A DNA stretch of 40,030 bases from an uncultured Desulfovibrio sp. GTDB taxonomy: Bacteria > Desulfobacterota > Desulfovibrionia > Desulfovibrionales > Desulfovibrionaceae. Positions 1 to 40,030 of this stretch are shown piece by piece (position 1 is the first letter of the stretch; the number at the start of each line of letters is the position of its first letter). Location of the stretch: assembly GCA_944327285.1 (NCBI GenBank), contig CALVHG010000023.1, positions 1 through 40,030 on the forward strand, in the 5' to 3' direction. Under the pieces are notes generated by a model. That model did not search any database and was not told where the DNA came from. It worked only from the letters and a program-made list of their open reading frames with translations. The position numbers were made by a program, and so were the translations under genes.

Positions 1-122
1 GCATTCCAAACCATACGGCCTGTCGTTTCGCGGAAAAAACGCGGTTTTTCCGCTCACTTTGGGCCGGGCGGCGCTGTGCTGCCGCCTTCGCGTTTCACCT
101 TTTTCAAAGTTGAAACGCTCTA
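1..122 (+). repeat. Element A copy 1 (cut by window start)
   Basis: This is the right-hand part of the interspersed element A, forward orientation. It has the second half of hairpin I, hairpin II (GCGGAAAAA / TTTTTCCGC), hairpin III (GGCGGC region) and hairpin IV (GCGTTTCA / TGAAACGC), and ends in GCTCTA at 117-122. The left end lies outside the window. Confidence 0.9.
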
Positions 123-187
123 GAACTCACTGTCTACATATGGCCAGTGCCCCTCTGAAAAAGCGCGTTGGGGGAAGGATGGGGGGC

Positions 188-357
188 CTGGGGGGAAGGA
201 ACCCCCCTTGCGCGCTAGCCAAGGGGGTTTCCTTCCCCCCAGTAACACAGCTAGCCGCGCCCGAATGGCGGCCGCAGGCCGTGCCCGTTAGGCGACACAG
301 GAACCTTACGGGCATCGACTGCAAAGATAAGGGGGTTTCTTCCCCCCAGAAAAACAG
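188..357 (-). repeat. Element B copy 1, with a large terminal palindrome
   Basis: Read on the minus strand this matches the second repeat family: a CTGGGGGGAAG-type G-rich start, then GTCGATGCCCGTA, then AACGGGCACGGCCTGCGGCC, then GCCATTCGG. The copy is extended by an inverted repeat whose arms lie at 188-210 and 220-242 (CTGGGGGGAAGGAA against TTTCCTTCCCCCCAG) around a 9-base loop. No convincing gene lies in 123-383. Confidence 0.75.
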
Positions 358-383
358 TTTAGCGCTCCCCAGGCGTTCAGTCT

Positions 384-1082
384 TCAGCACGAGCGCTTAC
401 GGCGCACCGGCAGGCGTTCCGCCAGCAAAAGACTTTCGTACCGGCCCGGCCCGCCGGCCGCATCCACCGACCGGTTGAGATCCCGACCATAAAACACCCG
501 CCAGAAACGCGCGGGCAGTCCTGCCAGCCGCTCGCGCAGCGCCGCTTCCTCCTCTGCTCCTCCGGCATGCCCTGTATAGCAATGAAGACACAGACAACCG
601 CACGGGGCCAGCCGTTCCAGCACCGCGTCCACGGCCCGCAAACTCGTTTCCACGCGGGTCACACAACTCTTGTCGCTGCCGGGCAGCCAGCCGAAATTAA
701 ACACCGCCGCTATCAAGGGACGCCCGGCGGCTTCCGGCACTTCCAGCAGCACATTTTCCAGTTCCTCATGCCCCCGGCACAGGCAGCGCCAGTCAGTCCC
801 AAGAGGCATTCCCGCCGCATGCAATTTTTCCCGCGCCTGGGCAAGCCGCGTTTCCGTAGCCGCAATGGCCGCGGGCTGCACATCAAGAGCCAGAACAAGC
901 GAGCCTTCCGGGGCAGTCTCCACTAAAAACAGCGTGTCATGCCCGTTCCCGGCCGTACCGTCCAGACACAGGGGCCGCGCCCCTGTTTCCCGCGCAGCCG
1001 CAAACGCCCGCGCCAGTCCAGCATGAGCAAGCTGATCCAGCAGCGAAGGGCGCGCGGGACGCAAGGCATGTTCACTGTGCAT
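384..1082 (-). CDS. mnmM: Class I SAM-dependent methyltransferase, MnmM/YtqB-like (tRNA 5-aminomethyl-2-thiouridine methyltransferase family)
   Basis: The 232-residue product has a glycine-rich SAM-binding motif (LDGTAGNGHDTLFLVE) near its N-terminus, and later FNFGWLPGSDK and CYTGHAGG, which match the pattern of the YtqB/MnmM family (GNGHDT, FNLGYLPGGDK, YxGHxGG). Known members methylate nm5s2U at the tRNA wobble position to mnm5s2U; the exact substrate here is inferred. The start at 1082 is chosen because GGGAGA lies 6 bases upstream; a longer frame from 1118 has no such site. The gene stands alone, with element B beyond its 3' end and element A upstream, so it is probably monocistronic. 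The family assignment is good; the precise enzyme name is less certain. Confidence 0.8.
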   Translation of the reverse strand: MHSEHALRPARPSLLDQLAHAGLARAFAAARETGARPLCLDGTAGNGHDTLFLVETAPEGSLVLALDVQPAAIAATETRLAQAREKLHAAGMPLGTDWRCLCRGHEELENVLLEVPEAAGRPLIAAVFNFGWLPGSDKSCVTRVETSLRAVDAVLERLAPCGCLCLHCYTGHAGGAEEEAALRERLAGLPARFWRVFYGRDLNRSVDAAGGPGRYESLLLAERLPVRRKRSC

Positions 1083-1151
1083 GAAAGATCTCCCGTAAAG
1101 ACGTGCCGCAACAGACACTGAAGGCTCAGAGAGCGCCTTTTTTCCTCAAAA

Positions 1152-1260
1152 TAGAGCCTTTTCAGTTTGAAACTGTGCGCTTCAAACCATATGGCCTGTC
1201 GTTTCGCGGAAAAACGCGGTTTTTCCGCTCGCTTTGGGCCAGACACCCGGCCGGGAAACA
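1152..1260 (+). repeat. Element A copy 2 (degenerate right end)
   Basis: Starts TAGAGCCTTTTCAGTTTGAA and keeps the CATATGGCCTGTCGTTTCGCGG block and hairpin II. After the CGCTTTGGGCC block the sequence no longer matches, so the right end is lost or has diverged before the mdtC-like stop codon at 1273. Confidence 0.8.
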
Positions 1261-1272
1261 CGCCGTCTCCGG

Positions 1273-4200
1273 CTACCCCTTGCGCGTCAGCACTTCCAGA
1301 CGACGGGCGCGAGTCCGGCCATAGCGGAGCTGCCAGCGCCAGCGGCGCACCCTGCGGCGCGCGCCATCCATGTAAAGAAAGACAACCGGCGTCGTGTAGA
1401 GGGTCAGAAGCTGGCTGAGGCACAGGCCGCCGACAATGGTCACCCCCAGGGGCTGACGGATTTCCGCGCCGTCACCCTGCCCCAGCGCCAGCGGCACAGC
1501 CCCGAAGAGCGCGGCGGCTGTCGTCATCATAATAGGCCGGAAGCGCAGACGGCAGGCTGTCACAATGGCCTCATCGGGCCTCTGCCCGCGCATGCGCATG
1601 GCGTCAAGGGCAAAGTCAATCATCATGATGGCATTTTTCTTGACGATGCCGCACAGCAGCAGCACCCCGATCAGGGCAATGACGCTGAATTCCATGCCGC
1701 AGAAAAGCAGCGCCAGCAGCGCGCCGCCCCCGGCGCTGGGAAGCGTGGACAGAATGGTCAGCGGATGCACAAGACTTTCATACAGGATGCCCAGCACAAT
1801 ATAGAGCGCCGCCAGAGCCGCCAGAATAAGAATGACCTGATTCTGGAGCGTTTCGCTGAACATCTTGGCCGTGCCCTGAAAGCTGCCGACAACGGAGGAC
1901 GGCATGCCGATACGCACGCGCGCCTCGTCAATGGCGGTCTGCGCCTGCGACAGCGACGAACCGGGAGCCAGATTAAAGGCCAGCGTCACGGCGGCAAACT
2001 GCCCCTGATGGGAAACCGACAACGGCGCAAAACCGGGACCGACTGTGGCCACGCTCAACAGCGGCACTAAGCCGTCCTGCCCGCGCAGATAGACCTTTTG
2101 CAGGGCGTCTTCTCCTTCCAGCCATGAAGGAATGAACTCCAGCACCACCCGATACTGGTTCTTGTCCCGGTACATGGTAGAGACCTGCCGCTGTCCGAAG
2201 GCGTTGTTAAGCGCGTTGTCCACGTCCTGCATGGTCAGACCGTAGCGCGCCAGCGCGTCCCGATCCACACTCAGAACCGTCTGAAGGCCGCGCTCTTCAA
2301 TATCGCTGTCCACATCTTTCAGGAAGGGAATACCCGCCAGCTCTTCCTGCAATTTCCTGCCCCAGCGGCGCAGCTCGTCGAGGTCGTCCGCCTGCAAGGT
2401 ATACTGATACTGCGACCGCGCGCTGCGGCCGCCCATCATAATATCCTGCGCCGCCTGAAGAAAAATCTGAAGACCGGGTTCGGACGAGAGACGGCCGCGC
2501 AGACGGGCTATGACGGCGTCGGCCGAAACCTTGCGTTCTTCCAGCGGCTTCAGGGCAATAAAGATCCCCCCGCCGCCGCGCGCGCCGGAGATATGACCGG
2601 AAACCTGCTCCACGGCGGGATCGGAACGAATAATTTCCATCAGCCGGGGCAATTTCTCCACGATATTCTGATAAGAGGAGCTTTGATCCGCGCGCATGCC
2701 GCCCATGATGACGCCCGTATCCTGCTGCGGAAAAAAGCCCTTGGGCACGATGATGTACAGCCAGACATTAGCAGCCAGCACCAGAAAGAGGGAAAACAGC
2801 GTCAGCCCCCGATGGCGCAGCACCACGGCAAGGCTGCGTTCGTAGCCGGACTGCATGCCCTCCAGCAGACGTCCCCAGGCCCGATCGATACGCGCCCGCA
2901 GCCGGGCAAACGCGCCCTGCTCCCCGGCGTTGCGTTTCAAATCTTCGGGCCGCAGCATATGGGCGCACATCATTGGCGTCGTAGTCAGAGACACAAGCAT
3001 GGACACAAGCACAGCCGTTGTCAGCACCACGGCAAACTCGCGGAACAGACGCCCGACAATGCCGCCCATGAACAGAATGGGCGCAAACACCGCCACCAGC
3101 GAAATAGAAATGGAAATGACGGTAAAGCCGACCTCGCGCGCGCCGCGCAACGCGGCACGCAGCGGCGTTTCTCCCAGTTCCATACGCCGCACGATATTTT
3201 CCAGCACCACAATGGCGTCGTCCACCACAAAGCCCGTGGCAATGGTCAGGGCCATGAGGGAAAGATTGTCCAGGGTGTAGTCGCAAAGGTACATGACCCC
3301 GAAGGTGCCAATCAGGGATACCGGCGCAGCCACGGCGGGAATAGTGGTGGCCCGGCCGTTGCGCAAAAAGAGAAAGACCACCAGCACCACGAGCACGACG
3401 GAAATCATGAGGCTCTTTTCCACCTCATGCAAAGAGGCCCGGATGGTCTGCGAGCGATCCATGCGCAGGGAAAGATCGGCGCTTTCGGGCAGCCACGAAC
3501 GCAGCTGCGGCAACATGGCCTTAACGCGATCCACTGTTTCTATGATATTCGCACCGGGGGAACGAAAAATAATAAGCAGAATTGCGGGTTTGCCGTTGGC
3601 AACAGCCATATTGCGCTCGTCCTGCGGCCCGTCGCGCACAACGGCGATGTCGCCAAGACGCACGGTCCCCTCGTCCGTATGGGCGACAATCAGTTTCTTA
3701 TAGTCCTCCGCCGTGGAAAGCTGATCGCTGGCATCGACCAGCCAGGAATATTCGCCGTCGTCCAGCAGACCTTTGGGCAGATAGGCGTTGGCGCCCGCAA
3801 TAGCGGAACGCACCGTCTCCATATCAAGCCCCATGCGATTGAGCGCGTCGGGAATGACATCCACGCGCACGGCAGGCAACGCGCCGCCGCCCACCGTCAC
3901 TTCGCCCACGCCTTCCATCTGGGAAATCTTCTGCGCCAGCACCGTGGAAGCCGCGTCATAGAGCTGCGTCCGCGTCAGCGTATCGGAGGTGACAGACAGA
4001 ATCATAATGGGCGCGCCCGCCGGATTCACCTTGCGATAGCTGGGATTGGACGGCATGGTGGGCAGCGTGGAACGCGCCGCGTTGATGGCCCCCTGCACAT
4101 CGCGAGCCGCGCCGTTGATGTCGCGGTTCAAATCAAATTGCAGCGTCACATTGCTGGAACCGAGGCTGCTGCTCGACGTCATTTCCGTGATACCCGCGAT

Positions 4201-4473
4201 GCGCCCCAGCGCCCGTTCCAGCGGCGTCGCCACGGTGGCGGCCATGGTTTCCGGGCTTGCGCCCGGCATGGAGGCGCGCACAACCACCACGGGCATATCC
4301 ACCTGCGGCAAAGGCGCCACGGGCAGCAGGGCAAAGGCGGCTATCCCCGCCAGCAGGACCGCCAGCGTCAGCAACGTGGTTGCCACCGGCCTGCGGATAA
4401 AGGGCGCGGAAATGTTCAGCGGCAGAAATTCCGGCCCGAAACGCTTGCGCTTTTCCCCGTGGCGCCCGCTCAT
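1273..4473 (-). CDS. mdtC: RND multidrug efflux transporter subunit, MdtC/MuxC-like
   Basis: The 1066-residue inner-membrane proton/drug antiporter belongs to the AcrB (HAE1) family. Visible features are the N-terminal segment [15 protein letters not shown] leading into TM1, the periplasmic porter region beginning [14 protein letters not shown], and the central membrane bundle with [14 protein letters not shown], whose paired Asp residues form the proton relay in AcrB. The C-terminal half repeats the pattern ([14 protein letters not shown]). It is the second of two tandem RND genes; its ATG overlaps the stop of the upstream gene by 4 bases, so the two are translationally coupled. That pairing is typical of MdtBC/MuxBC heteromeric pumps. 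The N-terminus has about 15 extra basic residues before the usual start. No membrane-fusion (MdtA) or outer-membrane channel gene is nearby. Confidence 0.9.
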
Positions 4474-7400
4474 GCGCGTTCCTCCCCGGCATGGCCGGAG
4501 CGCCGGAAACGCTGCGCCAGACGATCAAACCAGAGATAAATCACAGGCGTGGTAAAGAGGGTGAGCGCCTGGCTGAAAATCAGCCCGCCAACCATAGTCA
4601 CGCCGAGGGGACGGCGTAGCTCCGCGCCCATGCCCCAGCCGATCATCAGAGGCAGCGCCCCCAGCAGAGCCGCCATTGTCGTCATGAGAATGGGACGCAG
4701 ACGCAGCAGACAGGCCTGCCGGATGGCCTCTTCCGGGGCCTTGCCCTCTCCGCGTTCCGCTTCCAGGGCAAAGTCGATCATCATGATGGCGTTTTTCTTG
4801 ACGATACCGATGAGCAGAATAATGCCGATGATACCCACCACGCCCAGTTCCATGTCGCAGACAATCAAGGCCAACAGCGCGCCCACGCCCGCCGACGGCA
4901 GGGTGGAAAGGATGGTAACCGGATGCACATAGCTCTCGTAGAGCACGCCGAGCACGATGTACATAGTGATGACGGCCGCCAGAATCAGCCACACCTGATT
5001 ATCGGTAGAGGACAGAAACGCATGCGCCGCGCCCTGAAACTGCGTCCGCAACGATGACGGCAGACCGGCCTCCGCCTCTGCTTCCTGCACAGCCTTCACG
5101 GCCGCGCCAAGAGAGGAATCCTCGTCCACATTAAAGGACAGCGTAGCCACGGGGAACTGCCCCTGCCGCGCCACGGACAGATGCACGGCCCGTTCTTCGA
5201 CACGCGCAACGGCCGTCAGCGGCACTGGCTGGTCGCCGGTACCGCGCACATAGATATTTTCCAGCGTTCCCGGACCGTTGCGGAACAGGGGCGCGCTCTC
5301 CAGCACCACCTTGTACTGATTGGTCTGGGTAAAAATAGTGGAGATCAGACGCTGGCCGAGCGCATCATACAGCGCATTGTCAATATCGCTCATGGTCAGG
5401 CCGTAGCGCGAGGCCGCATCCCGATCAATATTAATCCACACGGCCCGCCCGCGGGCCTGCATGTCCGACGCCACATGCGAGAGCTCCGGCCGGGCGCGCA
5501 GCGCCTGCAAAAGACGCGGCTCCCAGGCTTCCAGCTGCTCCCGGCTCAGGGCCTCCACCGTAAACTGATACTGCGTGCGGGAAACGCGGTCCTCGATGGT
5601 CAAATCCTGCACCGGCTGCATGTAGAGCCGCTGGCCGGGCACGCTGTCGGCCTTCTGCATGATCCGCCGGGCGATTTCCTGCGCGCGCGCATCGCGCTCC
5701 GACAAATCCTTGAGGTTGACCGTCAGCCGCGACGTGCCCAGACTGGGATTAATTCCGTCCACGCCTACAAAAAAAGCCACGCTTTCCACAGCCGGGTCCG
5801 CCATGATGATCTCGGCCAGCTCCCGCTGACGGCGCGTCATGGCGGCAAAGGAACTATCCTGCGGCGCTTCGGCAATGCCTTGCAGCACGCCTGTATCCTG
5901 CGTGGGGAAGAAGCCCTTGGGCGTCACGATATACAGAGCCACGGTCAGCAGCAGCGTCCCGACGGCAACCGCCAGCACAAGGCCCTGCCGGGCAAGCACC
6001 CAGTCCAGCGCCCGCGCATACCAGCGCAGCAGAAAGTCGAAAAAGGCCCCGTGTTCCTGCTGTCTGCCATGTTCTCTGCCGAGCATGACCGCGCAGAGCA
6101 TAGGCGTCAGGCTCAGGGAAATAGCCGCCGATATGAGGATGGTCACGGCCAGCGTTACGGCAAATTCACGGAAGAGCCTCCCGGACACGTCGCCCATGAA
6201 CAGCAGAGGAATCAGCACGGCCACCAGCGACAGGGTCAAAGATATGATGGTGAAGCCAATCTGCCCCGCCCCCTGAAGCGCGGCCTGCAAGGGCTTCATG
6301 CCTTCTTCCAGATAGCGGGAAATATTTTCGATCACCACAATGGCGTCGTCCACTACGAAGCCGGAAGCAATAACCAGCGCCATCAGCGTCAGGTTATTGA
6401 GCGAATAGCCCGCAAGATACATGATGCCCAGCGAACCGACGAGCGACAAAGGCACGGCCAGCGCGGGAATGATTGTCGCCTGCACATTGCGCAAAAACAG
6501 CCAGATGACCGCGATGACCAGCACGATAGCCAGCGCCAGCTCCAGCTGCACGTCGTGCACGGTGGCGCGGATGGTCACCGTGCGATCCGTGACGGTGATG
6601 ATCTCCACATTGCCGGGCAGCGTCTGCCGGATGCGCGGCACCAGCTCGTTGACGCTGTCGGCCACCTCAATGACGTTGGCTCCGGGCTGCCGCTGCACGG
6701 AAAGAATGATGGCGGGACGGAAATCCTGCCCCCGCCCGGCCACATAGGCGGCAAGACGGGCGTTTTCCGCCCCTTCCACAACCTCGGCCACATCCTGAAG
6801 CCGCAGCGGCGCGCCGTTTTTGTAGCCGATGATGACGCGGGCGTACTCCTCGGCGGAAGCCAGCTGATCATTGGCGTCAATGGTGCTGGCGCGCTCCTTG
6901 CCGTCAAAGCTGCCCTTGGAGTCGTTGACGTTGGCCTTATCCACGGCGGTGCGCACGTCGGCCAGCGTCAGGCCCGCGGACGCCAGCGCCTTGGGATTGA
7001 CCTGAATGCGCACGGCGGGGCGCTGGCCGCCCGAAATCGTCACCAGCCCCACGCCGGGCAGTTGCGAAATTTTCTGGGCCAGCCGCGTGTCCACCAGGTC
7101 TTCGAGACGTGTCAGCGGCATGGCGTCGCTGACCACCGCCAGCGTCATGATGGGCGGGTCCGCCGGATTGACCTTGCTGTATACCGGCGGATTGGGCAAA
7201 TCCTGCGGCAGCAGACTGTCCGCCGCATTGATGGCCGCCTGCACTTCCTGCTCCGCCACATCCAGCGGCACGGACAAGTCAAATTGCAGGGTAATGACCG
7301 AGGCCCCCGCCGACGACTGGGACGACATCTGCACCAGCCCCGACATAGTGCCGAACTGCCGCTCCAGGGGAGCGGTCACCACGGCCGCCATGACATCGGG

Positions 7401-7565
7401 CGACGCGCCGGGGTAAAAGGTCTGCACCTGCATGGTGGGATAGTCGATCTGCGGCAGGGCGGCTATGGGCAGATAACGGTAGGCCAGCAGACCGGAGAGA
7501 AGAAGCGCCGCCATCAGAAGCGATGTGGCAATGGGACGAAGAATGAAAATGCGCGATATGTTCAT
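4470..7565 (-). CDS. mdtB: RND multidrug efflux transporter subunit, MdtB/MuxB-like
   Basis: The 1031-residue AcrB-family transporter begins [20 protein letters not shown], the standard RND start. It has two homologous halves, each with a TM1 segment, a large periplasmic loop and a membrane bundle. [14 protein letters not shown] carries the two Asp residues of the proton path, and the second half has [18 protein letters not shown]. It is first of the mdtB-mdtC pair and should form a mixed trimer with the next gene. It starts 12 bases after the exonuclease III stop codon and shows no good Shine-Dalgarno sequence (CTTTCCCTTCC precedes ATG), so reinitiation after the upstream gene is likely. Substrates cannot be read from the sequence. 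Confidence 0.9.
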
Positions 7566-7577
7566 GGAAGGGAAAGG

Positions 7578-8384: not shown

Positions 8385-8450
8385 ACAAAAACCTCGCGTG
8401 TTTTCCGCCCTGACCATAGCCGAGCCCGCACGGGAGAGCAAGACGTTCCA

Positions 8451-8479
8451 TTGCGGGGCAGGGCGTTTTCTGCTACGCT
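8451..8479 (+). promoter_or_regulatory. Putative sigma-70 promoter for purH-hflX
   Basis: TTGCGG at 8451-8456 and TACGCT at 8474-8479 are separated by 17 bases, 40 bases before the purH start. It lies in the divergent region between xth and purH. Pattern match only. Confidence 0.5.
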
Positions 8480-8519
8480 GTTTCACGCGTAAGAACGCAA
8501 CTTTTTACAGGAGTTCAAC

Positions 8520-9116: not shown

Positions 9117-9117
9117 T

Positions 9118-10794: not shown

Positions 10795-10824
10795 CAACGC
10801 GCGCTTTCAGCACTTTTTTTGAAA

Positions 10825-14182: not shown

Positions 14183-14410
14183 ATGACACGTTATCTGGCT
14201 CTGATTCTGTCCTGCCTGCTGCTGGTCGGCGGCGCGGTTCTCGGCAGCGGCTGTACGGCGCACCGCAACTATCATGACGGCGACAGATACCGTTCGGATC
14301 ATCGCCCGCCGCCTCCTCCGCCGCACAAGGAGCAGAGAAAGGACTACCGCCCCGATCACAGGCCGGACGGTCCTCCGCCCCACTATCGTTCTGACAAGAC
14401 GTATCGCTAG
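14183..14410 (+). CDS. Small secreted Pro/His/Arg-rich lipoprotein-like protein
   Basis: The 75-residue product has a hydrophobic N-terminal signal (TRYLALILSCLLLVGGAVLG) ending SGC, a lipobox-like site although position -3 is Gly instead of the usual Leu. The mature part is short, charged and Pro-rich (RPPPPPPHKEQRKDYRPDHR) with a second DGPPPHYRSD block, so it is probably disordered in the periplasm or at a membrane. AAGGAGG sits 5 bases before ATG, a strong ribosome site that makes the gene credible. Its stop codon TAG (14408-14410) is also the first three bases of the following element A copy. No function is recognised. Confidence 0.65.
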   Translation: MTRYLALILSCLLLVGGAVLGSGCTAHRNYHDGDRYRSDHRPPPPPPHKEQRKDYRPDHRPDGPPPHYRSDKTYR

Positions 14411-14552
14411 AGCGTTTTGCTTGAAAAACAAGAACGCGAAACGGTGGTACACGCCGCACGGCCTGAAGCGAGCGGAACACCGCGTTTTTTCTCGCGAAAC
14501 GACAGGCCGTATAGTTTGAAACGCACAGCGTTTCAAACTAACAAGAATCTGA
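14408..14552 (-). repeat. Element A copy 3 (degenerate)
   Basis: Reverse orientation. It starts TAGAGCGTTT, keeps the GAAACGACAGGCCGTATAG block and hairpin I (GTTTGAAACGC / GCGTTTCAAAC), and fades out after CAAACTAACAAG. Hairpins III and IV have decayed. Its first TAG is the stop codon of the lipoprotein gene. Confidence 0.8.
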
Positions 14553-14745: not shown

Positions 14746-14893
14746 TAGAGCGTTTCAACTTTGAAAAAGGTGAAACGCGAGGCGGCGGCACGGCGCCGCC
14801 CGGCCCAAAGTGAGCGGAAAAGCTGCGCTTTTTCCGCGAAACGACAGGCCGTATGGTTTGAAACGCACAGCGTTTCAAACTAACAAGGCTCTA
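14746..14893 (-). repeat. Element A copy 4 (full length)
   Basis: A full 148-bp copy in reverse orientation, from TAGAGCGTTTCAACTTTGAA to AACAAGGCTCTA. All four hairpins are recognisable. It lies in the leader of the following binding-protein gene, 32 bases before its start codon. Confidence 0.92.
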
Positions 14894-16516: not shown

Positions 16517-16807
16517 ATGCCGCAAGAAATCAGCAAAGAAACTGTTGCCCATATGGCAACCCTCGCCCGCCTTTCCGTCACAGAAGAGGAAAAGGCCCTG
16601 TTCGCCCGGCAATTTGGCGATATTCTCGCCTATATGGATGTCCTCTCCAAAGTGGACACCACCGATGTCGAACCCATGTACAGCCCCGCCCTGCATGCGC
16701 CTGCCATGCGCGAGGACCGAGCCGAACGCCGTCGCAGCCGGGAAGAAGTGCTGCAAAATGCGCCGGAACGCGACGAAGGGCTCTTTATCGTCCCGCGCAT
16801 TGTTTAG
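16517..16807 (+). CDS. gatC: Asp/Glu-tRNA amidotransferase subunit C
   Basis: The 96-residue protein matches GatC: ISKETVAHMATLARLSVTEEE at the N-terminus, QFGDILAYMDVLSKVDTTDVEPM in the middle, and a C-terminal REDRAERR...NAPERDEGLFIVPRIV. GatC wraps around GatA and stabilises the GatCAB complex that turns Glu-tRNA(Gln) and Asp-tRNA(Asn) into Gln- and Asn-tRNA. GAAGGAA sits 6 bases before the chosen ATG; upstream codons lack support. It precedes gatA by 301 bases, unusually far, because an element A copy lies between them. Its stop codon TAG (16805-16807) coincides with the first bases of that copy. No gatB is in the window. Confidence 0.95.
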   Translation: MPQEISKETVAHMATLARLSVTEEEKALFARQFGDILAYMDVLSKVDTTDVEPMYSPALHAPAMREDRAERRRSREEVLQNAPERDEGLFIVPRIV

Positions 16808-16947
16808 TCATTTTCCGTTTGAAACGCTTCGCTTTTCAAACCATACGGTCCGTCGTTTCGCGGAAAAAGCACTATTTTTCCGCACACTTTGGGCCGTGCA
16901 GCGCCGGGTGCCTTGCGTTCTGCCCTGCTCAATAGCAAAACGCTCCA
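16805..16947 (+). repeat. Element A copy 5, between gatC and gatA
   Basis: Forward orientation with diverged ends (TAGTCATTTTCCGTTTGAAA ... AACGCTCCA). Hairpins I and II are clear. Hairpin IV has become GCGTTCTGC / GCAAAACGC with one mismatch. The following 160 bases to gatA show no gene. Confidence 0.85.
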
Positions 16948-18569: not shown

Positions 18570-18583
18570 GGCCTGTTAACAAG

Positions 18584-18710
18584 TTTTGGGGAAGGGAAAC
18601 CCCTCATCTCTGCTGTCGATGCCCGTAGCTTCCTTCGTCGCAACGGGCACGGCCTGCGGCCGCCATTCGGTCACTGCTAACGCGAGAGGTGTTTCTCTTC
18701 CCCAGCGCGC
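18584..18710 (+). repeat. Element B copy 2
   Basis: A full-looking copy: TTTTGGGGAAGGGAAACCCC, then TCATCTCTGCTGTCGATG, CCCGTAGCTTCCTTCGTCGC, AACGGGCACGGCCTGCGGCC, GCCATTCGG, ending in a second G/C-rich piece (TTTCTCTTCCCCAGCGCGC). GCCCGT pairs with ACGGGC. It lies directly after gatA and 64 bases before an A copy. Confidence 0.8.
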
Positions 18711-18774: not shown

Positions 18775-18921
18775 TAGAGCATTTTCAGTTTGAAACGCTG
18801 TGCGTTTCAAACCATACGACCTGTCGTTTCGCGGAAACAACGCGGTTTTTCCGCTCACTTTGGGCCGGGCGGCGCTGTGTGCCGCCTCGCATGTCGTCTT
18901 TTCCAAAGGCAACATGCTCTA
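18775..18921 (+). repeat. Element A copy 6 (full length)
   Basis: A 147-bp forward copy, TAGAGCATTTTCAGTTTGAA to GCTCTA, with all four hairpins. Hairpin IV reads GCATGT / ACATGC in place of the usual GCGTTT / AAACGC, so two pairs changed on both sides. It is preceded by GCTC, giving a GCTCTAGAGC junction. Confidence 0.93.
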
Positions 18922-20886: not shown

Positions 20887-21003
20887 CAGAGCATTTTCAG
20901 TACGAACTGCCGGTTCGCGGAAAAGGCGCGGCCTTTCCGCTCGCTTCTGGCCGGGCGACGCTGCGCGCCTGCCTTTTACCGTTGCCAAAGATAAAACGCT
21001 CTA
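20887..21003 (+). repeat. Element A copy 7 (internal deletion)
   Basis: Forward, 117 bp, CAGAGCATTTTCAG to AAAACGCTCTA. The segment holding most of hairpin I and the CATACGGCC block is deleted. Hairpins II (GCGGAAAAGGC / CTTTCCGC), III and IV remain. Confidence 0.85.
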
Positions 21004-23229: not shown

Positions 23230-23274
23230 AACAAAAAAGACCGAGAGCCCCGCAGGCTCCCGGTCTTTTTTGTT
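23230..23274 (+). terminator. Terminator of the TauE operon
   Basis: AACAAAAAAGACCG pairs with CGGTCTTTTTTGTT, with an inner GAGCC/GGCTC stem. It is symmetrical and could act on both strands. Element A copy 8 begins on its last T. Confidence 0.92.
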
Positions 23275-23418
23275 AGAGCATTTTCAGTTTGAAACACAGT
23301 GCGTTTCAAACCATACGCCCTGCCGTTTCGCGAAAAAAACGCGGTTTTTCCGCACGATTCGGGCGGGCGCACTGTGCGCGGCCTCGCGTTTTACCTTTCC
23401 CAATGGCAAAACGCTCTC
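23274..23418 (+). repeat. Element A copy 8
   Basis: Forward, TAGAGCATTTTCAGTTTGAA to AAAACGCTCTCC. Hairpin IV reads GCGTTTT / AAAACGC, a paired change from GCGTTTC / GAAACGC. Hairpin I has one A.C mismatch (GAAACAC / GCGTTTC). Confidence 0.9.
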
Positions 23419-23847: not shown

Positions 23848-23865
23848 CAGGGCTGGCTCCCTGTA

Positions 23866-23990
23866 CCTTGGGGAGAGGGAACGCCTCTGCTCTCGATGCC
23901 CGTAACGGCCTTTGCCGCAACGGGCACGGCCTGCGACTGTTATTCATGCGATCGCTCTGGCGCGGAGTAGTTCTTCCCTCCCCTTTCCGG
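23866..23990 (+). repeat. Element B copy 4
   Basis: CTTGGGGAGAGGGAACGCCT, CTCGATGCCCGTAACGGCC, GCCGCAACGGGCACGGCCTG matches B copy 2 closely; the right part (TAGTTCTTCCCTCCCC) is a diverged version of the G/C-rich tail. It starts 19 bases after the small acidic gene's stop. Confidence 0.75.
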
Positions 23991-24693: not shown

Positions 24694-24816
24694 TGGAGCG
24701 TTGAGGCGGCGGCACAGCGCCGCCCGGCCCGAATCGTGCGGAAAAACCGCATTTTTCCGCGAAACGACAGGCTGTATGGTTTGCAATGCGAAGCGTTTCA
24801 AACTGAAAATGCTCTC
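24694..24816 (-). repeat. Element A copy 9
   Basis: Reverse orientation, TGGAGCGTTGAGGCGGCGGC to GAAAATGCTCTC. Hairpin IV is almost entirely deleted; hairpins III and II are intact and hairpin I carries mismatches (TTTGCAATGCGAAGCGTTTC). Confidence 0.87.
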
Positions 24817-27007: not shown

Positions 27008-27089
27008 TGGAGCATTTTCAGTTTGAAACACTGCGTGTTTCAAACCATGCGGCCTGCCGTTTCACCTTTTTTAAAGCTGAAACGATCTA
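27008..27089 (+). repeat. Element A copy 10 (deleted centre)
   Basis: Forward, 82 bp, TGGAGCATTTTCAGTTTGAA to GAAACGATCTA. Hairpins II and III are missing; I and part of IV are joined. Hairpin I is GTTTGAAACAC / GTGTTTCAAAC, a fully compensated change from GC to AT. Confidence 0.88.
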
Positions 27090-27800: not shown

Positions 27801-27944
27801 TGGAGAATTTTCAGTTTGAAACGCTTCACGTTTCAAACCATACGGCCTGCCGTTTCGCGGAAAAAACGCGGTTTTTCCGCTCACTTTTGTCCGGGCGGCG
27901 CTGGCCGCCTCGCGTTTCACCTTTTTCAAAGTTGAAACGCTCTG
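27801..27944 (+). repeat. Element A copy 11, between the DUF134 and HMA-like genes
   Basis: Forward, TGGAGAATTTTCAGTTTGAA to GAAACGCTCTGG, all four hairpins readable (III shortened to GGGCGGC / GCCGCC). It separates two genes that appear to share a transcript. Confidence 0.92.
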
Positions 27945-28629: not shown

Positions 28630-28666
28630 TAGAGCATTTCAACTTTGAAAAAGGTGAAATGCTCTA
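28630..28666. repeat. Element A copy 12: minimal 37-bp palindrome
   Basis: TAGAGCATTTCA ... TGAAATGCTCTA. It consists of element A's right-end hairpin IV alone, made symmetrical at its outer ends. Compared with the usual GCGTTTCA / TGAAACGC, one pair has changed on both sides (G-C to A-T). It lies between the two tRNA-operon terminators. Confidence 0.85.
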
Positions 28667-28707: not shown

Positions 28708-28782
<75 letters not shown>

Positions 28783-28798
28783 AAATGCGGCTATGATA

Positions 28799-28873
28799 TG
28801 GAGCGGGAAACGGGATTTGAACCCGCAACCTTCAGCTTGGGAAGCTGACACTCTACCGTTGAGTTATTCCCGC
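28799..28873 (-). tRNA. tRNA-Gly (CCC)
   Basis: Cloverleaf with acceptor GCGGGAA / TTCCCGC and anticodon loop TTCCCAA giving CCC. CCA is encoded. It resembles the Gly-GCC genes outside the anticodon arm, consistent with descent by duplication. Confidence 0.95.
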
Positions 28874-28918
28874 CCAAGCGGTGCGCTCTCGCGACGCTGC
28901 TAAGCAGCGTCACAAATA

Positions 28919-28993
<75 letters not shown>

Positions 28994-29025
28994 AGAGTGA
29001 ATCGATCCGGCTATAAAATTTTTTT

Positions 29026-29100
29026 TGGAGGCGGCATCCAGATTTGAACTGGAGCATGGAGGTTTTGCAGACCTCTGCCTTACCGCTTGGCTATGCCGCC
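29026..29100 (-). tRNA. tRNA-Cys (GCA)
   Basis: Acceptor GGCGGCA / TGCCGCC, anticodon loop CTGCAAA giving GCA, discriminator T, encoded CCA. Confidence 0.97.
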
Positions 29101-29106
29101 TCAGTG

Positions 29107-29182
<76 letters not shown>

Positions 29183-32006: not shown

Positions 32007-32023
32007 GCGCGCCGCCCCGGAAA

Positions 32024-34244: not shown

Positions 34245-34247
34245 GAG

Positions 34248-34538: not shown

Positions 34539-34689
34539 TGTCTTTGTCCTCTGGCCGCAAGGCTCCGGCCCCGGCCTTCCGCACGACGCGCTTCGGCGCA
34601 TCGCGCGTTCACGTTCACAAAAAATTTTATTTTTCTGCTGTCGATACCCGGCGAAAGGGCCTGCGCGAGAGACGGGCCCCTCATCTCTG

Positions 34690-34777
34690 TGCGGAAAAAA
34701 CACGATTTTCCGCTCGCTTCGGGCCAGGCGGCGCCGAGCGCCTCGCAATCTGCCCTGTTCAATGGCAAAACGCTCTA
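34690..34777 (+). repeat. Element A copy 13 (right part only)
   Basis: Forward, from GCGGAAAAAACACGATTTTC through GGGCCAGGCGGCGCCGAGCG to AAAACGCTCTA. The left third is missing and is replaced by a stretch (34635-34689) that vaguely resembles element B (TCGATACCCGG, ACGGGC). The end TAGAGC on the minus strand supplies the EIID stop codon. Confidence 0.82.
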
Positions 34778-35521
34778 GCCCCGGACAAGGGACGCATCCA
34801 GGAAGGCCAGACAGGAGACCCCAATCAGCCAGAGAATAATACGCGGCAGACGCATCCTCCAGGTAAAGATCGCGGCGGCCGCCGCGCACAGCAAGGCCGG
34901 CACACACAACAGCCACGGGAAGGAATGCCCCGTCCAGGGAGTAACGCCCAGCAGCAGCGCCAGCATAACGGCATTCAGCTGTTTGATCCGCCCCGCCCAG
35001 TCAATCAGAGCCAGACGCTTCAGCCACTGCAACGCAGCGACGCCATGCCGCAATCCGTAAAAAAAGATGCCTATCCTGAAGGCGACCATTCCGGCCACCA
35101 GCAACGCCGTCAGGATAATCGCTGACCAGATATGCCCGCACAGCGCAAAGATAACGCAGGCCAGCGACCAGCAGGGAAGCACCGCTCCTTCAAAAAAACC
35201 GTCACCCAGAGCCGACAGCGTCGTGGACAACGTGCGATTAACGCTGCCCAGAGCCGCGGCGGGCAGGGAACCGCTTGCAACCTGAATTTCCAGCGACAGG
35301 GTAATGCCCAGGAATAAAGGCATCATGTACGGGTGCGTATTGCTGTGCCCGGCATGCCGCAACAGGGCCTCCTGCCGCTTCTTGCCCGGAGGATACAACG
35401 CCATGATGGCGGGCTCCAGTGCAAAGAGCAGCCCGATCTCCTGCATGGCGCGGGTGGAGATGGCCGCATTGATACAACCGCAGCGGGCAAGACAGTGCAG
35501 AGCGACGGACGTGGTGAGCAT
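34775..35521 (-). CDS. PTS mannose-family IID component
   Basis: The 248-residue membrane protein matches the EIID (mannose/fructose/sorbose class) family: TRAMQEIGLLFALEPAIMALY, EALLRHAGHSNTHPYMMPLFLGITLSLE, and ALGDGFFEGAVLP, then several hydrophobic segments. EIID normally works with EIIC in the membrane and a phosphorylated EIIAB. None of those genes is adjacent: upstream lies element A and then rsmI. AAGGGGG precedes ATG 35521 by 5 bases. The stop codon TAG at 34777-34775 is formed by the end of element A copy 13, so the original C-terminus may have been altered; the last residues (LDASLVRG) look intact. Confidence 0.88.
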   Translation of the reverse strand: MLTTSVALHCLARCGCINAAISTRAMQEIGLLFALEPAIMALYPPGKKRQEALLRHAGHSNTHPYMMPLFLGITLSLEIQVASGSLPAAALGSVNRTLSTTLSALGDGFFEGAVLPCWSLACVIFALCGHIWSAIILTALLVAGMVAFRIGIFFYGLRHGVAALQWLKRLALIDWAGRIKQLNAVMLALLLGVTPWTGHSFPWLLCVPALLCAAAAAIFTWRMRLPRIILWLIGVSCLAFLDASLVRG

Positions 35522-35647
35522 GAAGCCCCCTTGAAAAAACCTTTGAACCCTGCCGCTGCATCCTGTCCGGCACGGGAGCCGTGCCTCCGGCTGTCTCAGA
35601 CCGGGAAGGAACAGGATACAGACGAAAAAACTCCCTTCCCCGGATAC

Positions 35648-35795
35648 TAGAGCGTTTCAACTTTGAAAAAGGTGAAACGCGGGGCGGCAGCACAGCGCCG
35701 CCCGGCCCAAAGTGAGCGGAAAAACCGCGCTTTTTCCGCGAAACGACAGGCCGTAAGGTTTGAAACGCACAGCGTTTCAAACTGAAAATGCTCTA
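35648..35795 (-). repeat. Element A copy 14 (full length)
   Basis: A 148-bp reverse copy, TAGAGCGTTTCAACTTTGAA to GAAAATGCTCTA, with four well-paired hairpins: IV at 35652-35680, III and II in the middle, I near the right end. It separates the rsmI gene from the PTS genes. The remaining 125 bases before EIID show no gene. Confidence 0.94.
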
Positions 35796-35807
35796 AAGAG
35801 GCGGAAA

Positions 35808-36647
35808 TCAAAGTTCCCGGATCAGCGCATAGAGCTCCTTCGAGCTCCAGCCTTCAAGCCGGGCCGCCGCCCGGCGGGCGCATTCCCGCGGCTTGCCGCC
35901 GTCCTCCAGTTCCTCGCGCAGCACGCCCAGCGCCTCTTCCCGCGAAGATCGGCCGCTTTCTTCCGGCGGCCCGATAATGACCGTTATCTCGCCGAGCAAA
36001 TCTGTTGCTGCTTCCGCAGCATTTTCCAGTCTGTCAAGTATAAATTCCTCATGCGTTTTGGTCAATTCCCGGCAAATAGCCAGCGCACGCGGTCCGAGGA
36101 TTTCCGCGGCCTGTTCCAAACTCTCGCGCAGGCGATCCTTGCGCTCGAAAAAAATAAGGGAACCGGGCGTGCGGCGAAACGCGGAAAAAAGAGCGGCGCG
36201 CCCTGCCGCATCCCGCGGCAGAAAGCCCAGGAAGGTATACGGCAACGGCGGCAGCCCCGCCGCCGAAAGCGCCGTTACCGGCGCGGAGGGACCGGGCACG
36301 GGAACCACGCGCACCCCGGCGGCCCGGCAGGCCCGCACCAGCCGATAGCCGGGATCGGCCACCAGCGGCGTTCCGGCATCAGACACCAGCGCGGCCGTGC
36401 CGCCCGCCTCAAGATGGCGCAGCACTTCCGGCTGTTTTTCGGCCTCGTTGTGATCATGAAAACTGACAAAACGCCGCACGGGAATGCCGCATTGCGCGCA
36501 GAGCAGCCCCGCGCGGCGCGTATCCTCGGCCAACACAAGATCGGCCTCGGCCAGCGTCTGGCGCGCGCGGGGAGAAAAATCACCAGGGTTGCCAAGCGGC
36601 GTTGCGACAATCCACAGCACGCCGCCCGTCGGAGAAGCGGAAGGCAT
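35808..36647 (-). CDS. rsmI: 16S rRNA 2'-O-ribose C1402 methyltransferase RsmI
   Basis: The 279-residue tetrapyrrole-methylase-fold enzyme modifies 16S rRNA C1402. Typical motifs appear in order: [73 protein letters not shown], and FLGFLPRDAAGR, with RELTKTHEEF and GEITVIIGP later. ATG 36647 gives an N-terminus of the usual length; GGAG lies about 10 bases upstream. It overlaps the end of yraN by 68 bases. It is the last gene of the trmD-rplS-rnhB-yraN-rsmI cluster. Confidence 0.94.
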   Translation of the reverse strand: MPSASPTGGVLWIVATPLGNPGDFSPRARQTLAEADLVLAEDTRRAGLLCAQCGIPVRRFVSFHDHNEAEKQPEVLRHLEAGGTAALVSDAGTPLVADPGYRLVRACRAAGVRVVPVPGPSAPVTALSAAGLPPLPYTFLGFLPRDAAGRAALFSAFRRTPGSLIFFERKDRLRESLEQAAEILGPRALAICRELTKTHEEFILDRLENAAEAATDLLGEITVIIGPPEESGRSSREEALGVLREELEDGGKPRECARRAAARLEGWSSKELYALIREL

Positions 36648-37062
36648 CGGGCATATGCTCCACGTTGAAGGTTGTTCCGTCATGCACCAGGCACAGAACG
36701 TCAAAACGACAGGGACGATCCCAGGCGTCATGGGCGCTCAACCAGGCCTGCGCGGCCTTGCAGACATGCGCCCGCTTGGCGGGCGTCAGCCCGTCAGCCG
36801 GACTGCTGACGCCTCCCGCCGTCCTTGTCTTGACTTCCACAAAAACCAGCTCCGTTCCGTCAAGGGCCACCAGATCCAGCTCCACATGCCCGTAACGCCA
36901 GTTGCGTTCCAGAATGCGCCAGCCCTTGCGGCACACAAAGACCGCGGCGGCATCTTCGCCGCGTCGCCCCAGCTCCGCCGACGACGCGACGCTCTGCGGG
37001 GTCGCGTCGCCTTCGCTACGGGTCCGCGTACCCGCTCCGGCCGTCATACGCCCGAAAATCAC
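36580..37062 (-). CDS. yraN: UPF0102 (YraN) family nuclease-fold protein
   Basis: The 160-residue protein carries the UPF0102 core: [50 protein letters not shown] and the Lys/Arg-rich [14 protein letters not shown]. The E-D-EVK residues recall restriction-endonuclease-like folds; a DNA repair or processing role is inferred. It begins with GTG at 37062 that overlaps the rnhB stop as GTGA, with GGGGAG 6 bases upstream, so coupling with rnhB is tight. The N-terminal 28 residues are low in complexity and the C-terminus overlaps rsmI. Confidence 0.92.
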
Positions 37063-37772
37063 AGCAACTCCCCTTGACGACAGGAAGTTTTCTCCGGCGC
37101 GGCAACGCCCTTGTATGTCAGGCGATGCTGCGGACAGGGCCCCAGACGCCGCAGGGCCGCATAGTGCGCCTGCGTGCCGTAGCCCTTGTGCTGCTCAAAG
37201 CCGTAGCCCGGCCAGCGGCGGGCCAGACACTCCATCACATGATCGCGGAACGTCTTTGCCAGAACAGACGCCGCGGCAATGGCGTCTACCCGCGCATCGC
37301 CGCCCACAACAGCTTCCTGCTGGGGAAAACGCGCCGCCGTCCACCGCGCGCGCAAGGTCTGATCAGGAATAGTCTTATTGCCGTCCACATAGATTATCCC
37401 CGGCGACACGGACAGCAGACAAACCGCCCTCGTCATGGCCTCGAACGTCGCCTGCAAAATATTGATTTCGTCAATACGCCGAGGCCAGACCACGCCCAGC
37501 CCCCAGGCTGTCGCGCACTGCCTGATACGCGGCGCAAGCGCCGCGCGCTGTGCCGCCGACAGCGCCTTGGAATCCGTCAGCCCCGGCAAGTCAAACGAAA
37601 CGGGCAGAATGACAGCCGCCGCCACCACCGGCCCGGCCAGACACCCGCGTCCGGCTTCATCCACGCCTGCCGGCGGGCGATCATCGGACAAGCCCGGCAA
37701 CAGTTGCGCGGCGCGCGCTTCCCACAGTTTCCGCGCGCTCAGGCACGGCATGACGGTTCGTGTCTTTTTCAT
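37059..37772 (-). CDS. rnhB: Ribonuclease HII
   Basis: The 237-residue enzyme cuts RNA in RNA-DNA hybrids and removes misincorporated ribonucleotides. The acidic active-site motifs are [19 protein letters not shown] (Asp38, Glu39), [17 protein letters not shown] and [33 protein letters not shown] near the C-terminus is also typical. The ATG at 37772 has no strong ribosome site; Met8 at 37751 is an alternative. It follows rplS in order but is separated from it by 368 bases that contain elements B and A, which is unusual for this cluster. Confidence 0.95.
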
Positions 37773-37809
37773 GACGCAATACCGGGTGTGTTAACACTAT
37801 TCGTAAGTT

Positions 37810-37893
37810 GTTTGGGGGAAGGGGAACCCCTCATCTCTGCTGTCGATGCCCGTAGCTTCCTTCGTCACAACGGGCACGGCCTGCGGCCGCCAT
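37810..37893 (+). repeat. Element B copy 5, abutting element A
   Basis: GTTTGGGGGAAGGGGAACCC, then TCATCTCTGCTGTCGATG, CCCGTAGCTTCCTTCGTCAC, AACGGGCACGGCCTGCGGCC, GCCAT; very close to B copy 2. At the point where copy 2 continues GCCATTCGG, element A begins (TAGAGC at 37894). Confidence 0.8.
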
Positions 37894-38012
37894 TAGAGCA
37901 TTTTCAGTTTGAAATGCTGTGCATTTCAAACCATACGGCCTGTCGTTTCGCGGAAAAAACGCATTTTCCCGCGCACTTCGGGCCGGGCGGCGCTGCCCAT
38001 CTTCCTTTTTGC
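37894..38012 (+). repeat. Element A copy 15 (right end diverged)
   Basis: Forward, TAGAGCATTTTCAGTTTGAA and on to the GGGCCGGGCGGCGCTG block; then the match fades. Hairpin I is GTTTGAAATGC / GCATTTCAAAC, a compensated C-G to T-A change. Bases 38013-38140 hold a possible AACAGCC / GGCTGTT stem and no gene. Confidence 0.85.
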
Positions 38013-38140
38013 CGGGTACGCCCGGCGTCGGGCTCCGTTACGCAAACAGCCCCATACCAATGCCCGAAGGCATTGCATGAGGCTGTTCAGGTGCTGTTTT
38101 CCGCTCATTCCGGGGAATGGTCGGAACAACAAGACAAAAA

Positions 38141-38488
38141 TCAGAAGCGGCCGCGGGGCTTGATACGAGCGGCCTTGCCCTTGAGGGCGCGCAGGTAGTA
38201 GAGACGGCTGCGGCGCACGCGGCCCTGCGTCACCACTTCCACGTGATCAATGAAGGGAGAATGCATGGGGAAGATGCGCTCCACGCCCACGCCGTCGGAA
38301 ATCTTGCGAACGGTGAAGGTCGCGTCCGTCGTGCCGCGGCTGATGCGGATCACATTGCCCTGGAACACCTGAATGCGTTCCTTTTCGCCTTCCACAATGC
38401 GCAGATGCACTTTCACCGTGTCGCCAGAGCGAAACACGGGCATATCCATGCGCATGTTTTCTTGTTCAATCTTTTTAATGATGTCCAT
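38141..38488 (-). CDS. rplS: 50S ribosomal protein L19
   Basis: The 115-residue protein is a standard L19 found at the 30S-50S interface: [68 protein letters not shown], and the C-terminal [27 protein letters not shown] lies 6 bases before ATG 38488. It follows trmD by 53 bases on the same strand, the usual arrangement in bacteria. Confidence 0.98.
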
Positions 38489-38541
38489 GCCCAACTCCTT
38501 GAATAGCCGGCTCACAGGGAACCGTCCTTGATATCGCGGCG

Positions 38542-39837
38542 TTATTGATAGTCGCCCAAAATTCTGTCGGCCAAGATAGCGGCCGCGCTCCGCACCGAAA
38601 GGTGGTTGTATTGCAGGAAGCGCACAGGGCGCAACTGCCCGTCGCTGCGCGCCAGCACTTCCGGCGCCAGACCGTGGGCAGTACCGAGGCAGAGCAGCAC
38701 GGGGCCGCTCCGGCACCATTCCAACACATCGGCGCACGTCAGCAAAGGCGGCGCATTCCTGCCCGCAGGCCAGGCAGCGGAACTTGTGACCAGCCGGGGG
38801 CGCTGCCCCGTGCGCTGCTCCAGCTCCGTTATGGCCGCATCCAGCGAAAGCGCCGGCCGGACAAGGCGCAACGCTCGCGCCCTGTCGGGGTTGCCCCGGC
38901 CTCCGGGACCGTCTGTCCAGTGTTGCAGAATCTCTGCCAGCAGGCGCTGCTGCTCTTCCAGCGGCGTCACCACATAGAACGGACCCATCGCATAGCTGCA
39001 GGAAATCCGGGCTATATCGTGAATATCAAAATTTGTCAAAGAGGAAACGCCGCTATTTTTCGCGTCTAGCATAACGGGATAGTGCATCAGGCACAAGGAA
39101 AGATTACGCCCCGCCCGTTCGCGCGGTATCCCCGCCAGCATCAGCGCGTCCTCGCGCCCCAGCGGAGCGCTGTCCAGCAGATCCGGCCGTACCGCCAGCG
39201 TCGCCCGCAAGGACATTTCCCGTCGCCAGTGGGCAATGCGCCCGTGATCGCCGCTCCGCAGCACTTCCGGCACGGGCAGCCCCTCCAGCACATCGGGGCG
39301 CGTGTAGTGCGGGTACTCCAGCAGGCCCGCCGAAAAGCTCTCTTCGTCGCCGGAAGCCTCTTTGCCCATAAAACCGGGCATCAGACGCGCCACGGCTTCC
39401 ATCAGGGCCAGAGCCGCCGTCTCGCCGCCGTTGAGCACCACGTCGCCCAGACTGACCGCCTCCAGCGGAAACAGTTCAAAAAGGCGCTGATCCAGCCCCT
39501 CATACCGTCCGCAGATAATGGTCAGATGTTCCTCCTTCGCCCATGCGCGCGCCATGCGCTGCGTCATGGGACGTCCTCCCGGACTCATGACCAGCATGCG
39601 CCCCGGCTGCGGAATGGACCGCAGGGCCGCCGCCACCGGCTCTCCCTGCAATACCATGCCGGGGCCGCCGCCATAGGGGCTGTCGTCCACATGGCGATGC
39701 CTGTCGCTGCTGAAGTTCCGCGGATTGTGAAACGTCACGTCCACAATGCCCGCGTCGCGGGCGCGTCCCATGAGCGCCACGCCCAGCGGCGAATCAAAAA
39801 ATTCCGGGAAAAGAGAAACAATATGAAACTGCGGCAT
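38542..39837 (-). CDS. trmD: tRNA (guanine-37-N1) methyltransferase TrmD with C-terminal second methyltransferase-like domain
   Basis: From ATG 39837 ([19 protein letters not shown]) the protein has 431 residues, against about 240-255 in typical TrmD. The first part is a complete Trm[66 protein letters not shown] and the [21 protein letters not shown] segment. From about residue 255 comes an additional 175-residue domain ([55 protein letters not shown]) resembling the RNA methyltransferase family Methyltrn_RNA_4; this fusion occurs in Desulfovibrio-type genomes. TrmD makes m1G37 to prevent frameshifting. The ribosome site is weak; ATG 39849 is an alternative. A hairpin and element A precede it. 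Confidence 0.92.
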
Positions 39838-39902
39838 GCCGCAAACCATGCCGCAAGTCGCTCCATCTGTCAAAAGAGATTGCGGCGCTTCTTCCGCAAC
39901 GC

Positions 39903-39940
39903 CGAAGCCCGGCGTTCCTCTCAGGAATCGCCGGGCTTCG
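39903..39940. promoter_or_regulatory. Long hairpin upstream of trmD
   Basis: CGAAGCCCGGCG (39903-39914) pairs with CGCCGGGCTTCG (39929-39940), and the loop itself can pair TTCCT/AGGAA. No T run follows on either strand, so it may be a leader structure or processing site rather than a terminator. Confidence 0.45.
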
Positions 39941-39954
39941 GGCAAAAGAACTCT

Positions 39955-40030
39955 TAGAGCATTTTCAGTTTGAAACGCTGTGCGTTTCAAACCATACGGC
40001 CTGTCGTTTCGCGGAAAAAACGCGGTTTTT
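39955..40030 (+). repeat. Element A copy 16 (cut by window end)
   Basis: Forward, TAGAGCATTTTCAGTTTGAA with perfect hairpin I (GTTTGAAACGC / GCGTTTCAAAC), the CATACGGCCTGTCGTTTCGC block and the first part of hairpin II. The rest lies beyond the window. Confidence 0.92.

Follow-up and report, generated by a model that had tools for sequence, protein, structure and literature searches.

The window analysed here is a stretch of 40,030 nucleotides from an uncultured Desulfovibrio sp. (contig C23, CALVHG010000023.1, from base 1; genome G000, assembly GCA_944327285.1, 3.33 Mb in 179 contigs), between whose genes a short repeat, element A, recurs. A preliminary description of this DNA had reported about 16 dense copies of about 148 bp, in both orientations and never inside a gene, and had likened them to miniature inverted-repeat transposable elements (MITEs) or to repetitive extragenic palindromes (REPs). 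Six of the window copies served to build a profile, which they match by construction; it recovered 15 of the 16 at the places described (E-values of 2.6e-49 to 4.6e-13) and on both strands. All 16 lie between predicted genes, three of them touching a gene only by its three-base stop codon. The ends given earlier, TAGAGC...GCTCTA, hold up as imperfect terminal inverted repeats, the two ends having a median of 14 of 20 bases in common; the successive internal hairpins are predicted for the consensus, with paired changes backing the two that adjoin the ends; and the internal deletions are borne out by several copies in which one end or an interior segment is missing (1152, 20887, 24694, 27008, 34690 and 37894). 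As had also been stated, the window holds no transposase gene, the IS630-type genes of G000 lying on contigs C4 and C140 only. Apart from five tRNAs, no catalogued RNA family in Rfam exceeds its gathering score in the window. The copies, found by profile match unless otherwise stated, are as follows.

1..122, + strand: copy that has lost its left part at the start of the window and contig
1152..1242, + strand: left part of a copy only
14408..14550, - strand: near full-length copy whose right-end TAG terminates predicted gene 14183-14410 (+, 75 amino acids, weakly scored; profile match and gene calls)
14746..14893, - strand: full-length copy
16805..16946, + strand: near full-length copy, with its left-end TAG serving as stop codon for predicted gene 16517-16807 (+, 96 amino acids; profile match and gene calls)
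18775..18921, + strand: full-length copy, used as the search query
20887..21003, + strand: internally deleted copy; relative G022 has a direct tandem pair at the same site (profile match and comparison with G022)
23274..23417, + strand: full-length copy
24694..24815, - strand: copy without most of the right-end hairpin
27008..27089, + strand: internally deleted copy that retains the first hairpin and the right end
27801..27944, + strand: near full-length copy with ends TGGAGA and GCTCTGG
28630..28666, no strand assigned: 37-bp TAGAGC...GCTCTA palindrome consisting of the ends only, outside the profile matches; G022 has a full copy at the same site
34690..34777, + strand: right part of a copy, whose TAG terminates predicted gene 34775-35521 (-, 248 amino acids; profile match and gene calls)
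35648..35795, - strand: full-length copy, used as the reference row for structure counts
37894..37995, + strand: left part of a copy
39955..40030, + strand: copy cut off at the end of the window

Counting across the genome revealed that the repeats are not confined to this locus. The left end TAGAGCATTTTCAGTTTGAA, with up to two mismatches, has 515 matches in the whole of G000 and none in a reversed control, so that element A is not a product of chance. In a G000 sample of 627,489 bases (sampled stretches carry L-numbers), 193 profile hits were obtained, 117 of them full-length, and merging of overlaps left 187 distinct copies; these span 23,331 bases, or 3.7% of the sample, which has a total of 117,331 bases between predicted genes, and such sample figures are not genome averages because many stretches were selected for holding copies. 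A length of ~148 bp without a transposase gene, and many dispersed copies whose positions differ between relatives, with sites filled in one genome and empty in another, are both as in a MITE. Among the matches listed, at least 73 named stretches carry the end sequence, all of them from Desulfovibrio or Desulfovibrionaceae assemblies, and the window copy was matched in 12 of 61 genomes (its own included), all of one genus. One exact left end was seen within a 6360-bp viral contig of IMG/VR (L104:1710-1730).

A search of G000 with Pfam DDE_3 returned two proteins. The one on contig C4 (L105:1405-2373, reverse strand, 322 amino acids) scores 193 bits against the NCBIfam IS630 model (cut-off 100) and 1.6e-33 against DDE_3, and its residues D156, D236 and E271 have DD34E spacing. 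The corresponding insertion sequence (IS) is 993 bp long (L105:1396-2388), runs from TAGAGC to GCTCTA with the ends TAGAGCGTTTCACCTTTGAAATG and TAGAGCAATTCAACTTTGAGATG, and abuts a copy of element A, a single TA being common to both. When compared to the right ends of 113 copies, the IS end TAGAGCGTTTCACCTTTGAAATG agrees at 18 of 20 bases in the median case and at all 20 in the best, reaching at least 18 in 62 of them. Element A and an IS630-family element of the same genome have terminal inverted repeats in common, as expected of a MITE, and the MITE-like half of the preliminary description, which had named an IS630-type transposase sharing TAGAGC and about 15 further bases as a partner to seek, is supported by this transposase with shared ends; its REP-like half fared differently, since a search for the REP-associated tyrosine transposase (RAYT) gave no Y1_Tnp match in G000. 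A homologous IS in G022 aligns over ~1 kb in different surroundings, and its two sides read as different genes. Around the second DDE_3 protein of G000 (L106), no TAGAGC ends were found in the stretch seen; stretch L227 of genome G020 matches the same part of the DDE_3 domain as L106.

IS630-family copies were also noted at loci of G002, G025, G010, G028 and G001 (L109-L136), several with nearby TAGAGC ends; in some, the protein is divided over two overlapping frames (residues ~1-115 and 106-307), perhaps through decay or a programmed frameshift. Beside the G000 IS, L105:425-1439 holds VbhA/Fic-like overlapping frames, with the IS at the 3' end of the Fic frame.

The boundaries of the copies point to a preferred target. 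TA stands exactly at both ends of 106 of 202 full copies, direct tandem copies have one TA in common, and the reconstructed site is YTAR (Y, pyrimidine; R, purine) for 54 of 71 full TA-bounded copies, versus 587 of 4211 free intergenic TA sites (14%). An empty-like site was identified for 10 of the 109 copies with usable flanks, five clean (representing four sites) and five gapped or unclear. Two of the clean unoccupied sites have TA and lie inside copies of another repeat (L149:7990 and L076:5466); one, with CA/TG, is a single site in two genomes (L162:236 and L146:2782, compared with G022), and one has CG (L137:7308 compared with the window, its G020 alignment being gapped). On the whole, boundaries and empty sites fit a TA target that is duplicated on insertion, again as in a MITE, with L015:1448 as an exception.

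The repeat that hosts element A at L149:7990 and L076:5466 is the third one noted in this DNA, is G-rich (AAAGCGCGCTGGGGAAGGG...), and hosts further copies at L143:1487-1677 and elsewhere; its empty copies keep a single TA. All seven abutting pairs of element A (gap -3 to 3) among the closest pairs listed are head-to-tail, where random orientation would also yield inverted pairs (L148:15384-15674, L148:9583-9764, L192:6882-7129, L183:11179-11360, L143:13908-14199, L144:10298-10590 and L142:10761-10853).

The three window copies that supply a stop codon are part of a wider pattern. Among 304 intact element ends, counted by hits, 46 fall precisely on the stop codon of a gene that reads toward the element; only two genes enter the element in another frame, and 21 more stop within ~55 bases before it. 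With overlaps merged (one copy had been hit on both strands), 45 of the 184 copies with an intact end lie precisely on a stop codon, with the right end toward the gene at 31 and the left end at 14, and the genes concerned are 45 distinct ones of the 463 predicted in the sampled stretches. TAA and TAG stop codons are occupied in 45 of 340 cases, versus 142 of 4353 other intergenic TA sites (by hits), a 4.5-fold enrichment (p = 1.3e-13). Restricting the comparison to YTAR sites leaves 20 stop codons occupied and 120 free, versus 34 and 587 elsewhere (odds ratio 2.9, p = 8e-4), and every one of the 20 full TA-bounded copies on stop codons occupies a YTAR. The coincidence is also seen when gene calls are set aside: 58 of the 85 long open frames terminate in phase with the element's TAG (p = 5e-11), as compared to 126 of 816 for random TAG triplets. 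Corresponding values are 6 of 10 in G022 (p = 0.08), 2 of 3 in G020 and, in a mixed set of 28 loci, three of them of family A and the others of the sequence families F2-F4 described below, 15 of 23 (p = 0.002).

Whether these genes are truncated was assessed for 13 of the 45, namely those with a relative matching to the last two residues. At least one relative ends at the same residue in 12 of the 13. Most close relatives have the element at the same stop codon; in cases 0, 5, 18, 28 and 42, a relative stops after the same residue with a TAA, TAG or TGA that is not spelled by any element, so that the genes look naturally ended rather than truncated. Some more distant relatives of case 0 end elsewhere. 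At the end of a CitMHS-type transporter gene (VLF-stop), the same TA is occupied in G000 by a left-truncated MITE copy, through its right end, and in G022 by the IS (...GTCCTGTTC followed by TAGAGC).

Gene context is uneven. Of the 193 hits, 166 lie between two predicted genes (11 in 55 divergent, 53 in 57 convergent and 102 in 248 tandem regions), and three lie mostly within a predicted gene. Between tandem genes, 73 of the 102 copies are oriented opposite to the genes and 29 along them (p = 1.6e-5); under a slightly different neighbour rule, the bias is 55 versus 25 with the stop-codon cases and 19 versus 5 without them. A weak outward promoter-like match, TTGAAA-18-GAAAAT, made up of the first hairpin and the element end, is present at the left end of the window copies at 16805, 18775, 23274, 27008 and 27801, and would fit this orientation bias. 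Flanks on both sides of the element fold more stably than control flanks, and A-runs of at least four are in mild excess beyond the right end (10.9% versus 2.8%). Some copies follow a T-tract (window 28630 and L105:2531). Targeting of intrinsic terminators was rejected as a general rule, terminator-like flanks being found at 4 of 119 right and 5 of 118 left ends, and at 34 of 1500 control sites.

The consensus fold has one hairpin at each end and two inner hairpins, one of them with an outer stem. RNAalifold applied to the 113 G000 copies gave almost no structure, and pairs were therefore counted on a named structure. Across 111 distinct G000 copies, this yielded 107 pair-keeping double changes versus 6-24 in slid controls, of which 38 fall in the first hairpin and 61 in the last; the inner stems have five, one and two, hardly above their own controls, and the TAGAGC/GCTCTA pairing has none in these copies. 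In a set of 37 copies (36 from seven genomes, plus L216), 92.4% of cells pair and 66 two-sided changes were counted, versus a shuffled mean of 19.6 (reached in 0 of 500 shuffles) and 5-19 in slid controls. Among 19 representatives drawn from four sequence types (F1-F4), fold z-scores ran from -3.1 to -10.3.

Part of the genus has TAGAGC-ended elements, 139-152 bp long and of differing sequence families, in which a similar chain of hairpins recurs. TAGAGC-bounded elements of similar length are frequent in 11 of 79 genomes of the genus, G000 included (21-174 matches; controls 0-6), G067 and G094 have 15 each, and most other genomes are at or near control level. With a covariance model of types F1 and F2, eight F3 elements reached 36-48 bits and a further one (L225) 27 bits, while a sequence-only model scored seven of the eight at 17-32 bits and missed one. 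Twelve chance TAGAGC...GCTCTA loci served as a control; 11 had no hit at E < 1, and the 26-bit hit in L207 lies elsewhere in that stretch. Kinship of the F4 type (G017, G089 and G061) to family A is not claimed, because its scores do not exceed 29 bits and wrong-strand matches reached 25.7 bits in the same search. A narrower pattern designed for G089, G098 and G017 found few copies, its fixed bases being misplaced.

Taken together, these sequence comparisons suggest that element A is very probably a non-coding MITE of hundreds of copies, moved in trans by the resident IS630-family transposase mainly into YTAR sites, with about a quarter of the sampled copies on stop codons. The transposase would bind the shared ends, excise the element and insert it at the TA of YTAR, a target that TAA and TAG stop codons fit. 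Because the element starts with G after the TA, the stop codon would be re-formed as TAG and the length of the protein kept, and the insertion should thus cost little. As a weaker step, we suggest that retention of the hairpins may reflect a role of the folded strand or RNA in movement, or in the mRNA ending within the element. The preliminary description had not anticipated insertion on stop codons, the preference for YTAR or the reappearance of this design in part of the genus.

Several points weigh against this explanation. Just one intact matching transposase gene was found in G000, and that of G022 is apparently broken (two frames, one TAA). Eleven of 12 further element-bearing genomes, including G089 (one contig) and G098, gave no IS630-type DDE_3 match, and the twelfth, G020, has the second DDE_3 type only, without TAGAGC ends in the stretch seen; most of the compared genomes are draft assemblies in many contigs. 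Either gain and loss of the transposase or the action of a different enzyme would account for the genomes without a match. The other end of the IS agrees with MITE right ends at a median of 15 of 20 bases, and MITE left ends reach a median of only 15 of 20 with either IS end. A TA duplication of the IS itself could not be demonstrated, the joined G022 flanks yielding no clean empty site. To these are added the full copies beyond the 106 with TA exactly at both ends, the count and quality of the empty-like sites, and the insertion at L015:1448, which has no clear TA. The choice of many sample stretches for the copies they hold counts on the same side, as does the use of our own simple hexamer predictor for gene calls. 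In case 36, the relative (49% identity) continues beyond the stop codon supplied by the element. Lastly, the stop-codon enrichment could stem from selection rather than from targeting.

We lean slightly towards this last possibility, in which the element enters any YTAR without targeting stop codons and selection keeps the harmless insertions, those at stop codons being harmless because TAG is restored. It accords with the avoidance of divergent, promoter-bearing regions (11 copies in 55 regions versus 53 in 57 convergent ones), with the share of the stop-codon enrichment that YTAR accounts for (a fall from 4.5-fold to 2.9-fold), and with the exclusive use of YTAR sites by the 20 full TA-bounded stop-codon copies. 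Harder to reconcile with selection are the 2.9-fold excess that persists among YTAR sites, and the near absence of insertions in other frames (2 genes versus 46 exact ends), though one of the two other frames would add few codons. A further doubt concerns the paired hairpin changes, which might come from template switching between the arms, a palindrome-perfecting mutation, instead of selection on the fold. We regard this as a serious possibility while leaning slightly the other way: within G000, most paired changes fall in the two end hairpins (38 and 61 of 107), with the inner stems totalling eight, near their controls; however, hairpin order and a length of 139-152 bp are similar across families of different sequence, and the structure model outscores the sequence-only model on the F3 elements.

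That the elements are resident host regulatory RNAs or terminators rather than mobile DNA appears very unlikely. Their stable folds, their preference for gene ends and the tandem-pair orientation bias of 73 versus 29 would suit such a role, but occupied and unoccupied sites, tandem copies with a common TA, nesting in another repeat and ends shared with an IS all argue against it, and the frequency of terminator-like flanks is not clearly above that of the control. A repeat of the type formed by REPs and bacterial interspersed mosaic elements (BIMEs), spread by a RAYT, which is a Y1 transposase, is scarcely credible here: element A is short, palindromic, intergenic and dense in the manner of REPs, yet its TA-bounded ends are held in common with an IS630-family element, and the Y1_Tnp search that was positive in 5 of 14 control genomes gave zero matches in G000, which rules this explanation out for G000.

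Known systems resemble the proposed MITE in part. Nezha of cyanobacteria is a MITE with an IS630-type partner, and REP/BIME repeats with a RAYT form dense, short, intergenic palindromes. Element A is like the latter in being a dense short palindrome between genes, and unlike them in its TA-bounded transposon ends and in the lack of a RAYT match in G000. The closest published pair known to us is RUP with IS630-Spn1. The comparisons with RUP, BOX and Correia repeats that follow are made by published description. RUP of Streptococcus pneumoniae is a 107-bp MITE with terminal repeats like those of an IS630 element, a TA target and ~108 intergenic copies (PMC2229807). Like element A, it is a short MITE sharing terminal repeats with an IS630 element and using TA; going by that description, element A is set apart by several-fold more copies, a hairpin chain with asymmetric ends, the YTAR preference and frequent stop-codon coincidence. 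The Correia/NEMIS repeats of Neisseria are MITEs of 107-155 bp with TA termini, fold-back transcripts and high copy number (PMC2229807, PMC10969869), and so are like element A in length, termini and abundance. By description, they lie upstream of genes and carry promoters (PMC10969869); element A, in contrast, is scarce between divergent genes and prefers the ends of genes.

The supply of stop codons by repeats is itself not new, pneumococcal BOX elements being a precedent: in one pneumococcus, BOX encodes a stop codon in 36 cases, without strong evidence of truncation (PMC3049150). Pneumococcal repeats are also enriched between convergent genes, as element A is. BOX resembles element A in supplying gene stop codons; it differs in being modular, at 67-637 bp, and in its partner ISSpn2, which was proposed from terminal-repeat similarity (PMC3049150). 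The accessible part of that paper yielded no statement that insertion targets the stop codon. Likewise, the accessible portions of the literature searched, including PMC6382973 and PMC4853749, yielded no description of an IS or MITE targeting stop codons, and the search found nothing on such repeats in Desulfovibrio. For a target preference and an end sequence that jointly explain the supply of stop codons, no earlier description was found in the literature searched.

Dense MITEs have been described before, and the YTAR preference and the TAG-bearing end would offer a simple, testable answer to why such density is tolerated. About one-tenth of the predicted genes in the sampled stretches (45 of 463) ends on an element stop codon, and the mRNA tail of these genes is therefore likely set by a transposon. 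A broader and rather doubtful extension is that a Desulfovibrio transposon lineage docks on stop codons as a safe harbour, its IS and MITEs replacing host stops and appending the hairpin chain as a mobile 3' untranslated region, with the fold selected genus-wide while the sequence changes. The similar hairpin order in differing sequence families provides natural replicates for asking whether MITE folds are selected.

Other features of the window were noted alongside. Besides element A, a second repeat is dispersed in the window; it is ~85 bp long, contains a hairpin (GATGCCCGTAGC...CAACGGGCACGG) and occurs at 18583-18667, 23860-23944 and 37810-37894, and its last copy, ending at 37894, directly abuts element A there. 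Four tRNA-Gly genes and one tRNA-Cys gene are clustered at 28708-29182, and the 37-bp palindrome at 28630 lies just past a terminator-like hairpin downstream of this cluster. Near the start of the window, two adjacent genes in tandem (1273-4473 and 4470-7565) encode AcrB-type (ACR_tran) pumps.

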